Below are positions 24,952 to 28,332 of a DNA stretch of 64,000 nucleotides, in pieces (the first letter of the stretch is position 1; every line of letters starts with the position of its first letter). Position numbers and translations under genes: made by a program. The stretch covers positions 62,001 through 126,000 of the forward strand of contig NZ_AVCJ01000034.1 of assembly GCF_000743535.1 (NCBI RefSeq). The letters run 5' to 3'. The notes under the pieces are model-generated. The model had not been told where the DNA came from. It searched no databases and saw only the letters and a program-made list of their open reading frames with translations. The stretch comes from Arenimonas donghaensis DSM 18148 = HO3-R19 (GTDB lineage Bacteria; Pseudomonadota; Gammaproteobacteria; Xanthomonadales; Xanthomonadaceae).

Positions 24952-26028
24952 ATGAAACGCCTGTTCGCACTGCTCGTCCCGCTTCTCGCGCTAACCGGCT
25001 GCGCGACCTACGGGGATGGCTACTATCGCGACCGCACGGTCTATCGCGACGGGGGCTATTACTACCCCGCCTACGATGGCGAAGGCGACTACTACTACGG
25101 CGCCGACCGGGGCTACGACTACGATTACCACTACAGCAGCGGCATCGGTTACGGCTACGGCTACACGCCGTTCTGGGGCCTGGACCGCTACCGCTGCCGC
25201 AGCTATTACGGCTGCGTGCCGACCTGGGGCGGTTATTACCCGTATCACTATTCCCCGGGCTGGAGCTTTTCCATCGGCAACACCTGGGGCTGGGGCAATC
25301 TCGGCTGGTACGGTGGTTACAACTACTACCACCGCCCGCGCTATCGCGACCGCAACCCGCGTCCGGACTACCCGTACTACGGCAACGAAGGCAACTACGA
25401 CCGCTGGCCGCAGCCGATGCCCAAGCCGCGCCCGGACCGCTACCGTCCCGTGCAGGACCGTGCACCGCCGGCGTCGCGCCCCGGTTACCCCGGCACCACG
25501 GCGCCGCGGCCGATCGTGCGTGGAGAACCGGCCCGCGACCCGTCGCTGCGGCCGGTGACCAAGCCGGCACCGGCCGTCGGTGGCCAGGCGCGGCCGAAAC
25601 CGGACCCCGCGGACCGCTTCGACCGGAGTCCGCGTCCCTACACCAAGCCGGCCGAGGCCGGGCAAGGCGAGCCGCTGCCGCGGCCGCGCTATCGCCAGCC
25701 AGTGCGCGGCGAACCGATCAGCGCCCCGTATCCGCGCGCCAGCGCGCCGGTGCAGCCGGCGCCGGCCCGGGCAGGCGGTCCGCGCATGCGGTATCCGGAG
25801 CCGGTGCGGTCACAGCCGCGGCAGTCGGTCAGCCCGTCGGCCCCGGACCTGCGCCAGGCCCAGGGCGAACGCCGCATGCAGCCGCCCCGGCCAGCGCCCC
25901 AGGCCCGTCCGGCGCCCATGCCCCGGGCCGAGCCCATGGCCAAGCCGGCTCCGCGGCAGGCAGCGCCTGCGCCGCGCCCGCAAGTGAGAACCCGGTCACA
26001 AAACAGAACATCAGATGAGGAACAGTAG
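24952..26028 (+). CDS. Tyr/Gly-rich then Pro/Arg-rich lipoprotein
   Basis: A 358-aa lipoprotein of unknown function. The signal peptide ends in LTGC (Cys17). Residues of about 20-140 are extraordinarily rich in Tyr, Gly and Asp (many YGYGY, YYYP and YDYD runs) and include two Cys in YRCRSYYGC. The remaining two thirds are low-complexity Pro/Arg/Ala sequence of the kind that lies along peptidoglycan or binds polyanions. The start MKRLFALLV is chosen over an ATG six codons upstream because it gives the cleaner signal peptide. Codon bias and GC match the neighbourhood. No family is recognised with confidence. Confidence 0.65.
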   Translation: MKRLFALLVPLLALTGCATYGDGYYRDRTVYRDGGYYYPAYDGEGDYYYGADRGYDYDYHYSSGIGYGYGYTPFWGLDRYRCRSYYGCVPTWGGYYPYHYSPGWSFSIGNTWGWGNLGWYGGYNYYHRPRYRDRNPRPDYPYYGNEGNYDRWPQPMPKPRPDRYRPVQDRAPPASRPGYPGTTAPRPIVRGEPARDPSLRPVTKPAPAVGGQARPKPDPADRFDRSPRPYTKPAEAGQGEPLPRPRYRQPVRGEPISAPYPRASAPVQPAPARAGGPRMRYPEPVRSQPRQSVSPSAPDLRQAQGERRMQPPRPAPQARPAPMPRAEPMAKPAPRQAAPAPRPQVRTRSQNRTSDEEQ

Positions 26029-26097
26029 GGTCTTGGGGCCATTCGGGATTGCGTCACCCCGGACGGCGGAGCATCCTACGGACGCCGACTGACACTT

Positions 26098-26116
26098 TGC
26101 GTCACGTTGTGACGCA
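26098..26116. repeat. TGCGTCAC inverted repeat, third half-site nearby
   Basis: TGCGTCAC-GTT-GTGACGCA is a perfect 8-bp inverted repeat with a 3-nt spacer. The same octamer occurs once more at 26050-26057. No T run follows on either strand, so a protein-binding site is more likely than a terminator. Confidence 0.45.
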
Positions 26117-26242
26117 GGGGTGGTTGAACCCTCTGTTCGGCGTCCGGCATCAGGTCCCCTGGATTCCCCCTGTTCCAAGACCCGCCGGGCGCCGACTTTA
26201 ACCCCGCAGCGCCGTGGACTTTCCGGATCGCTGCAGAAAGCC

Positions 26243-26284
26243 AAAAAAAAGGGCCTGGCGTTCCCCCCCGGGAACGCCAGGCCC
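26243..26284 (-). terminator. Very strong leftward Rho-independent terminator
   Basis: A perfect 14-bp stem (GGGCCTGGCGTTCC and its complement) with a 6-nt loop is followed on the minus strand by eight T residues (26250-26243). On the plus strand the A run precedes the hairpin and no T run follows, so it can only work leftward. No minus-strand protein gene ends here. Confidence 0.93.
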
Positions 26285-26361
26285 TGGCATCCCTACCGCG
26301 CGCCTGACCAGCCCCTGTTCAGTCTGGTCGACGCCCCCCGGCGTTGGCCGCGGTAGGTGCC
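26243..26361 (-). ncRNA. Predicted sigma-54-dependent structured small RNA
   Basis: A 119-nt minus-strand RNA is predicted from four independent signals. First, a near-consensus sigma-54 promoter lies just upstream; counting 12 nt on from its -12 GC puts the start at 26361. Second, the RNA's first 13 nt (GGCACCTACCGCG) pair with CGCGGTAGG-(GA)-TGCC at 26300-26286, leaving a two-nt bulge. Third, inside this closing stem lie two hairpins, ACGCC-GGGG-GGCGT (26344-26331) and GACCAG-N12-CTGGTC (26329-26306). Fourth, a 14-bp terminator hairpin and eight U residues follow directly. There is no convincing reading frame. It does not match 6S, SRP or tmRNA patterns I know. It is divergent from mnmG, and the promoter lies in the mnmG upstream region. 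Confidence 0.62.
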
Positions 26362-26370
26362 TTGGGGTTT

Positions 26371-26389
26371 AAGCAGGAAGCGTGCCAAG
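26371..26389 (-). promoter_or_regulatory. Sigma-54 (-24/-12) promoter
   Basis: Minus-strand CTTGGCACG-CTTC-CTGCTT. The -24 element TGGCACG is perfect, the spacer is the correct four bases, and the -12 element is CTGCT against the consensus TTGCW. The invariant GG and GC dinucleotides are separated by the required 10 nt. The predicted start is G at 26361. A second TTGGCA lies upstream at 26399-26394. Enhancer-binding sites would be expected further right, within the start of mnmG. Confidence 0.65.
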
Positions 26390-26454
26390 CAGATGCCAAG
26401 GTGCGCGGCCGATCCCCAGGGCGGATAATCGCGGCCCACCACCGGACTCCGACC

Positions 26455-28332
26455 ATGCTCAGCTATGAAGTGATCGTCATCGGCGGCGGCCACGCCGGCA
26501 CCGAAGCGGCCCTCGCGGCCGCACGGGCGGGTGCGCGCACGCTGCTGCTGACCCACAGCATCGAGACGGTCGGCCAGATGAGCTGCAACCCGGCCATCGG
26601 CGGCATCGGCAAGGGCCACCTGGTGCGCGAGATCGACGCCCTGGGCGGCGTCATGGCCCGCGCCGCCGACCTGGCCGGCATCCAGTGGCGCACGCTCAAT
26701 GCCAGCAAGGGGCCGGCGGTGCGCGCGACCCGCGCCCAGGCCGACCGCGCGCTGTACAAGGCGGCGATCCGTCGTTTCGTCGAAAACCAGCCCGGGCTGA
26801 CGCTGTTCCAGGCGGCGGTCGACGACCTGGTCATCGAAGCCGGGCAAGTGCGCGGCGTGGTCACCCAGTCCGGCCTGCGTTTCACCGCACCGGCGGTGGT
26901 GCTGACCGCCGGCACCTTCCTGGCCGGCCGCATCCATGTCGGCCTGCAGCAGCACCCGGGCGGACGCGCCGGCGAGGCGCCGGCGACGACGCTGGCGCAG
27001 CGCCTGCGCGAGGGACCGTTCGTGGTGGATCGGCTCAAGACCGGCACGCCGCCGCGCATCGATGGCCGCAGCCTCGACTACGCGGTGATGGCCGAACAGC
27101 CTGGCGACGATCCGCGTCCGGTGTTTTCCTTCCTGGGCAGCGTCGACGACCACCCGCGCCAGGTGTCGTGTTTCATCACCCACACCAACGAACGCACCCA
27201 CGACCTGATCCGCGGCGGCCTGGACCAGTCGCCGATGTACGCCGGCGCCATCGAAGGCGTCGGCCCGCGCTACTGCCCGAGCATCGAGGACAAGGTGGTG
27301 CGCTTCGCCGACAAGGCCTCGCACCAGGTTTTCGTCGAGCCCGAAGGCCTGGACACCCACGAGGTTTATCCCAACGGCATTTCCACCTCGCTGCCCTTCG
27401 AGGTGCAGCTGGCCATGGTGCGTTCGATGCGTGGCTTCGAGAACGCCGTCATCACGCGTCCGGGTTATGCCATCGAATACGACTATTTCGACCCGCGTGG
27501 CCTGAAGGCATCGCTGGAGACCAAGGCCGTGGCCGGGCTGTTCTTCGCCGGCCAGATCAACGGCACCACCGGCTACGAGGAAGCGGCGGCCCAGGGCCTG
27601 CTGGCCGGCGTCAATGCCGCGCGCCTGGTGCAGCAGCGCGAGGCCTGGTCGCCAGGCCGCGACCAGGCCTACCTGGGCGTGCTGGTGGACGACCTGGTGA
27701 CCCACGGCACCACTGAGCCCTACCGCATGTTCACCAGCCGCGCCGAATACCGGCTGCAGCTGCGCGAGGACAATGCCGACGCCCGCCTGACGCCGGTTGG
27801 TCGCGAACTGGGCCTGGTCGATGAAGCGCGCTGGGCGGCCCATGCCCGCAAGGCCGAGGCCGTGGCCGCCGAGCGTGCGCGCCTGCAGGCGATCTGGGCC
27901 ACGCCGGGCGGCGCGCTCGCGCGCGAGCTCGAGGCCGGCACCGGCGTCGCGCTCAGCCGCGAATGCACCGCGCTGGACCTGATGAAGCGGCCCGAGCTCG
28001 ACTATGCCGCCCTGATGCAGATGGCCTCGCTGGGTCCCGGCGTCGAAGACCCGGCCGTGGCCGAGCAGGTCGAGATCGGCGTCAAGTACGCCGGCTACGT
28101 CGACCGCCAGCGCGACGAAATCGAACGCCAGCGCCGCCACGAAGACACCCGCATCCCCGACGACTTCGACTACGCCGGCCTGCCCGGCCTGTCGGCCGAG
28201 CTGCAGGGCAAGCTGGCCGGCGTGCGTCCGGAAACCATCGGCCAGGCCCAGCGCATCCCGGGCATGACGCCGGCGGCGATTTCCCTGCTGCTGGTGCAGC
28301 TGGCCCGGCGCAAGGGTCGTCGCGTCGCCTGA
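26455..28332 (+). CDS. mnmG: tRNA uridine-5-carboxymethylaminomethyl synthesis enzyme
   Basis: MnmG (GidA), the FAD/NADH partner of MnmE that modifies the wobble uridine of several tRNAs. The 625-aa protein begins with the FAD-binding [14 protein letters not shown]. Signature blocks are [47 protein letters not shown] and the helical MnmE/tRNA-binding C terminus. ATG 26455 follows a possible -10 box GGATAATC. It lies immediately downstream of the divergent small-RNA promoter, with the DUF2062 gene 17 nt after its stop. Confidence 0.96.

Follow-up and report, generated by a model that had tools for sequence, protein, structure and literature searches.

What is the structured small RNA apparently read from the minus strand at positions 26243-26389 of the window (the whole stretch of 64,000 nucleotides analysed here), and on what might it act? 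A sequence-only reading had proposed a sigma-54-driven RNA divergent from mnmG and recognised in it no known family. The latter point has to be corrected, as an Rfam search identifies the RNA as asX1 (RF02235), an already catalogued small RNA of the Xanthomonadaceae. The match covers the full model (positions 1-115 of 115, window 26245-26359) and scores 77.9 bits against a curated cut-off of 70. Excerpts of PMC4652430 report expression of asX1 in X. campestris pv. raphani and its presence in all of the X. campestris genomes that one study covered, and excerpts of PMC12189769 list it in cells of Xylella fastidiosa at 0.015% of ncRNA, with none seen in vesicles. The literature searched, which did not cover the original 2012 description of asX1, contained neither sigma-54 control of asX1 nor a facing partner RNA, and named no regulator or target.

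The proposed promoter is indeed in place (Table 1). Its pattern TGGCACGNNNNNTGCT occurs once in 64 kb; shuffled sequences give a mean of 0.06 occurrences, and 6 of 100 shuffles contain one. Behind the promoter, the asX1 strand reads GGCACC... and continues with a closing stem, two hairpins, a terminator hairpin and eight T. The +1 predicted at about 26361 coincides, as claimed, with the 5'-most base of the closing stem GGCA/UGCC. The two internal hairpins and the eight U were likewise recovered in the 119-nt fold, which has a free energy of -85.6 kcal/mol compared with -53.3 +/- 3.7 for shuffles (z -8.7). Some details changed: the stem of the terminator hairpin, given as 14 bp, has 16 bp in the minimum-energy fold, and the 119-nt transcript agrees with promoter, fold and terminator but the Rfam limits are slightly shorter. 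Divergence from mnmG was confirmed by a profile match. The statement that no minus-strand protein gene is present needs qualification, because a mechanical open reading frame (26293-28140, minus strand) crosses asX1; it is antisense to mnmG and has no other support.

Table 1. Features of the asX1 locus in window coordinates.
Feature	Positions	Strand	Sequence or basis
sigma-54 promoter of asX1 (-24/-12)	26372..26388	-	TTGGCACG-CTTC-CTGCT; once in window
asX1 small RNA	26243..26361	-	RF02235 match, fold and covariation; +1 predicted at ~26361
apical loop region of asX1 hairpin 2	26312..26323	-	ACUGAACAGGGG; GAACAGGGG can pair with the facing-RNA loop
intrinsic terminator hairpin of asX1 and T run	26242..26285	-	sequence and fold; terminator helix paired in 98.2% of cells
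mnmG (gidA)	26455..28332	+	TIGR00136, 885.9 bits; divergent from asX1
facing RNA, structured small RNA convergent with asX1	~26084..26202	+	no Rfam match; both ends inferred
sigma-70-like promoter of facing RNA	26049..26077	+	TTGCGT-N17-CATCCT; predicted from sequence
5' hairpin of facing RNA	26086..26126	+	fold; fold energies give no strand
main stem-loop of facing RNA (12-bp outer stem, then short U stretch)	26137..26195	+	fold and covariation
apical part of facing RNA	26161..26176	+	GGAUUCCCCCUGUUCC; CCCCCUGU unpaired, UUCC in weak 4-bp stem

Comparison with relatives extends these observations. Among 198 genomes of the window's family, 173 contain an asX1 match at E<=0.001, in 145 of them above the cut-off, and none of 14 control genomes does. 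From the 173 matching genomes we assembled 111 asX1 loci (the window, the 30 best matches and 80 picked to span genera), and two alignments, A1 with 67 rows and A2 with 48 rows, were made from loci picked for diversity. In the alignment of 48 sequences, the asX1 stems are paired in 95.9% of 1524 cells. Compensatory change in relatives, the check originally proposed for this fold, was found: 27 of 32 pairs show two-sided changes and none of 500 shuffles reaches as high a value, the structure being derived from the same 48 sequences. The motif TGGCA-N7-TGC precedes the RNA in all 111 loci with variable spacer letters, and the distance from TGC to the Rfam start is always 12-16 nt. This conservation in relatives is the strongest argument against a chance occurrence of promoter and RNA, and it supports control of asX1 by sigma-54.

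In support of such control, rpoN was found in 195 of the 198 genomes. Among the other three, G034 (99% complete) is also devoid of asX1 and of the facing RNA, and G014 (82% complete) has the facing RNA and no strict sigma-54 site. G080 (86% complete) has both RNAs, which counts against sigma-54 control unless it reflects an assembly gap. Simple scans for enhancer motifs upstream of asX1 in 126 loci returned nothing recurrent: NtrC-type sites were found in none, GCAC-type sites in 8 and TGT-N10-12-ACA in 16, and the commonest 5-nt palindrome (CGGCG, 39 loci) resembles mnmG codons. Binding of RsmA/CsrA through a GGA in the hairpin-2 loop was rejected as an explanation, since the window's genus has no GGA in that loop.

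A possible partner lies beyond the asX1 terminator, on the opposite strand and outside the interval 26243-26389. The complement of the usual asX1 loop has one match per genome in six members of the genus searched; all six fall in the same element, hereafter the facing RNA, and five are placed beside asX1. An alignment of seven genus members contains a near-invariant block of 65 nt, its core starting 66-138 nt past the asX1 match, and a scan of all loci places the block 24-332 nt past asX1 in the family as a whole. All 111 asX1 loci contain the facing RNA in the stretch retrieved (2-3 kb each, or positions 26000-26300 for the window), and in 107 it lies at most 450 nt downstream of asX1. Across the 67 aligned rows the loop core CCCCCUGUUCC never changes and the stem does; as the element was located by its loop pattern, this constancy is partly presupposed, and no locus was lost by it. 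The main stem, taken from the window's fold, is paired in 96.5% of 735 cells with two-sided change in 11 of 11 pairs. None of 500 shuffles gives so high a value, and slid registers score far lower.

The kind of these changes bears on the strand of the facing RNA. Read from the plus strand, the 735 cells hold 91 G-U and 6 A-C cells. Because G-U on one strand is an A-C mismatch on the other, the counts indicate that the facing RNA is read from the plus strand, towards asX1. Fold energies are less decisive: the main hairpin is more stable on the plus strand in just 88 of 132 loci and the 5' hairpin has no preference (plus better in 59 of 132); in the window the whole RNA folds with z -4.2. Upstream, a -35/-10 class TTG[AC]NN-N16-18-CA..CT, picked after sight of the sequences, occurs in 89 of 132 loci compared with 7 of 660 control windows. 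The facing RNA looks constitutive. At E<=0.5, neither the 14 family loci scanned nor the 8 loci from other families gave an Rfam family for it, the rows returned being asX1 and weak unrelated matches; none of the 14 family loci had a row for sX13 (RF02232) at this position. The facing loop GGAUUCCCCCUGUUCC (elsewhere GGAUCCCCCCUGUUCC) resembles the 3' end of 16S rRNA, GGAUCACCUCCUU, possibly by coincidence.

The two loops can pair with each other. Counting G-U, 77 of the 111 Rfam-level loci allow 10 consecutive base pairs and the other 34 allow 9. For Watson-Crick pairing we compared 126 pairs, obtained from 132 loci by requiring a strict sigma-54 site and, behind it, GA(A/G)C(A)GGG (L190, L193, L196, L203, L204 and L210 were left out). 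The longest stretch between both RNAs is at least 10 in 85 of them, 82 times at the loops, and below 9 in four. In controls made from 32 of the 126 loci, a stretch of at least 10 arose in 13 of 320 cases with the facing RNA shuffled and in 7 of 320 with asX1 shuffled. Chance complements of 8-9 nt are common between GC-rich RNAs, and the loci are phylogenetically related, so that the counts are not independent trials. In the window, GAACAGGGG with CCCCUGUUC would yield -16.6 kcal/mol for the loops alone. The predicted folds leave GAACAG of asX1 and CCCCCUGU of the facing RNA clearly unpaired, and place GG of asX1 and UUCC of the facing RNA in weak stems that would have to open. We consider it most likely, from this complementarity, that the two RNAs bind each other through their loops. 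The loop cores are nearly constant, so compensatory change between both RNAs is not demonstrable, and a shared protein or a third partner could be an alternative cause of their constancy.

The two RNAs also occur together. A model of the facing RNA (R1) matches 185 of the 198 family genomes: 173 have both RNAs, 12 the facing RNA only, none asX1 only and 13 neither, where absence of asX1 means absence of an Rfam match and three of the 13 are negative by absence from the match table. Nine of the 12 genomes with the facing RNA only were read. Five contain a strict sigma-54 site with a GGAACAGGG loop behind it (farther off in L190), two have a near-consensus site with TGAACAGGGG (L204, L210) and two have weak sites only (L193, L203). 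The 21 loci L190-L210 were found via the facing element, whose presence there is thus not independent, and L205 is the genome of L053; whole-genome searches over 40 genomes used stricter filters. The arrangement is convergent in 124 loci. In two loci of genus g3 (L023:1302-1612 and L038:1230-1586), asX1 shares the strand of the facing RNA and sits between it and mnmG, with complementary loops, and in L039 the pair is about 1.1 kb apart with loops still pairable. These variants in separation and orientation imply that the relation is not one of antisense overlap.

An exact search with GGATCCCCCCTGTTCC in named genomes returned at least 119 stretches. Among the matches listed, 99 bear names that we sorted by hand as Lysobacterales-type, and 93 of these have a strict sigma-54 site and an asX1 loop within 1.2 kb. 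Of the six misses, four are close to the end of the stretch retrieved; the site of L254 deviates at one position, and L249 has no site. Both RNAs are present, among the listed matches, in Xanthomonas, Stenotrophomonas, Lysobacter, Luteimonas and Pseudoxanthomonas. Of the 20 other names listed, five have the sigma-54 site and asX1 loop: three 'Proteobacteria' MAGs and one 'Bacillus subtilis' record with a genuine facing hairpin, and a fifth without it. The Bacillus record (L266, strain SK7B5), with a facing RNA nearly identical to that of Stenotrophomonas and a sigma-54 asX1, is probably an assembly contamination.

Outside the family, in other families of the order, model R1 matches 24 of 53 genomes. 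We read 20 of these 24, plus G231 and G243 by coordinates; all 20 loci read retain the facing core CCCCCUGUUCC. As a raw count, 14 of the 20 have a sigma-54-like site with CAGGGG behind it on the strand opposite the facing RNA; one mismatch in the site was allowed and was used in two loci. By family, the arrangement occurs in 7 of 7 loci of f12, 4 of 4 of f3 (+56 to +64, once +105) and 3 of 3 of f11 (+16), and two further f11 genomes fit by coordinates. The putative transcript of f11 is short (about 57 nt in G207) and by eye has no asX1 closing stem. In G207 and G216 it includes CAGGGGGAATC, which is complementary over 11 nt to the other half of the facing loop. Three f11 loci (L342, L343, L346) have such a short, apparently sigma-54-driven RNA opposite the facing RNA, its promoter 128-136 nt from the facing loop, and no Rfam match was returned at this RNA in L342 and L346. 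In the remaining six loci (f2, f4, f5 and f10), the facing RNA is present and no sigma-54 site was found opposite. A Guanidine-II riboswitch match below threshold was noted at L350:394-445, plus strand (27.6 bits, cut-off 32, E 0.036).

Comparison shows the promoter, the folds of the two RNAs, the strand of the facing RNA, the conserved complementarity of the loops and the co-occurrence. On this basis we suggest that asX1 is probably a sigma-54-controlled antagonist of the facing RNA, acting through loop pairing; we infer that the pairing takes place in the cell, that asX1 acts on the facing RNA and not the other way round, and that mRNAs are the eventual targets. An enhancer-binding protein would activate the sigma-54 polymerase and asX1 would be transcribed. 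Its hairpin-2 loop, usually GGAACAGGG(G), would then capture the C-rich loop of the adjoining facing RNA by a contact built on CAGGGG x CCCCUG, which reaches 9-10 bp in the window's family. With the facing RNA captured, its repressed clients would be freed, perhaps mRNAs with G-rich ribosome-binding regions. A wider proposal, which we offer tentatively and rate somewhat below an even chance, is an order-wide RNA-on-RNA switch under sigma-54. At least two architectures, asX1 and the f11 RNA, would have arisen or been kept opposite one older RNA with a C-rich loop, each displaying CAGGGG(G) as a mimic of a G-rich ribosome-binding site, and activation would release a set of mRNAs.

Some candidates for such mRNAs can be named. 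Leaders with a sigma-54 site and CAGGGGG gave 34 hits compared with 10 for the reversed pattern in 99 family genomes, moderately above control with many hits unconvincing, and 22 compared with 4 in 24 genomes of other families. At about position 1500 of L387 (genus g43), a sigma-54-type promoter precedes a gene that by eye is FlgB-like, and CAGGGGG stands immediately ahead of the start codon. In f12, around position 1500 of L354 and L355, sigma-54-like promoters precede paralogous small secreted proteins (MRKTL...), whose leaders contain a hairpin and, some 25-30 nt ahead of the start codon, CAGGGGG; three hits of this kind occur in G238. These leaders, of the FlgB-like gene and of the secreted paralogs, would be natural candidate targets of the facing RNA.

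The direction of the interaction might be reversed, with the facing RNA as a constitutive sponge and asX1 as the effector that pairs with mRNAs via its G-rich loop. The same loop-pairing evidence applies to this version, and the facing RNA has a life of its own in the 6 of 20 other-family loci without a sigma-54 neighbour. We nevertheless hold it unlikely. The 12-nt complement CCCCTGTTCCAA was searched in 149 genomes and hit 87, mostly at asX1 itself or the facing RNA, and the remaining exact hits, compared by eye, were scattered with no recurrent mRNA target seen; asX1 was, moreover, never found without the facing RNA in the 198 genomes. It is quite unlikely, too, that asX1 serves as a sponge for sX13 with the facing RNA as one more client with a C-rich loop. 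This idea has attractions: excerpts of PMC3771888 describe how sX13 acts via C-rich loops on G-rich mRNA motifs near translation starts, sX13 (RF02232) was found in 189 of the 198 genomes, and 69 of 70 sX13 sequences contain CCCCUG, complementary to CAGGGG. As a client of asX1, however, sX13 found no support, a complement of at least 9 nt arising in 10 of 70 pairings compared with 63 of 350 with shuffled sX13 (asX1 was drawn at random, and the genome not always shared), and genus g10 has sX13 but no asX1 match. The window's genome itself has an sX13 homologue at L111:1501-1618, with 49.7 bits just under the Rfam cut-off of 50.

If the facing element were a long mnmG leader, asX1 would be a cis antisense RNA to it. 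The facing RNA does share its strand with mnmG, in 100 of 126 loci a motif for the first codons of mnmG is found no more than 260 nt upstream of the asX1 promoter, and the name asX1 suggests an antisense call. A T run after the main stem in L031 and L032 and a further terminator-like hairpin in L008 oppose it, as do L023 and L038, where asX1 with its own terminator is inserted in the same direction between facing RNA and mnmG; we regard such a leader as very unlikely. Adjoining small RNAs with complementary loops also resemble type I toxin-antitoxin pairs, in which the facing RNA would encode a small toxic peptide and asX1 would be the RNA antitoxin. A short frame beginning ATG TCG is readable through the facing element in many genomes. 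We disfavour the coding reading, since one-nucleotide length changes in the stem (L048 compared with L057 and L007) shift this recurrent frame and make a conserved peptide unlikely; it is the pairing that persists, and a toxin is highly improbable. Barely credible is the idea that a single protein recognises both loops as DNA, at repeats of GGAACAGGGG. Both copies do read alike on the asX1 strand in convergent loci, but the stem around the facing loop shows G-U in preference to A-C changes, and the relative orientation is reversed in L023 and L038.

Taken together, antagonism of the facing RNA by asX1 remains our preferred reading, and both a regulator of asX1, sigma-54, and a specific partner RNA without an Rfam entry can now be tested. 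Through the pair, plant pathogens, opportunists and free-living relatives alike would couple sigma-54 signals to post-transcriptional control. As to known systems, the window RNA belongs to the asX1 family by its full-length match above cut-off. The facing RNA shares a C-rich apical loop with sX13; it has one such loop where sX13 has three, and no RF02232 match. For a sigma-54-controlled decoy, as we suppose asX1 to be, GlmY is the nearest known RNA in logic. According to excerpts of PMC7073468, enterobacteria make GlmY under sigma-54 control, and it counteracts what befalls GlmZ, an RNA produced constitutively. GlmY acts by capture of the protein RapZ and is homologous to GlmZ. The sequences of asX1 and the facing RNA, in contrast, differ, and their loops are complementary. 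RNA sponges or anti-sRNAs such as SroC titrate another small RNA by base pairing. The titration that we propose would be of the same kind, and conserved complementarity to the partner small RNA, as expected of a sponge, amounts to 9-10 bp in 111 of 111 loci. Unlike sponges of the SroC type, asX1 adjoins its partner and is apparently under sigma-54, and the pair is kept across most of a bacterial family.
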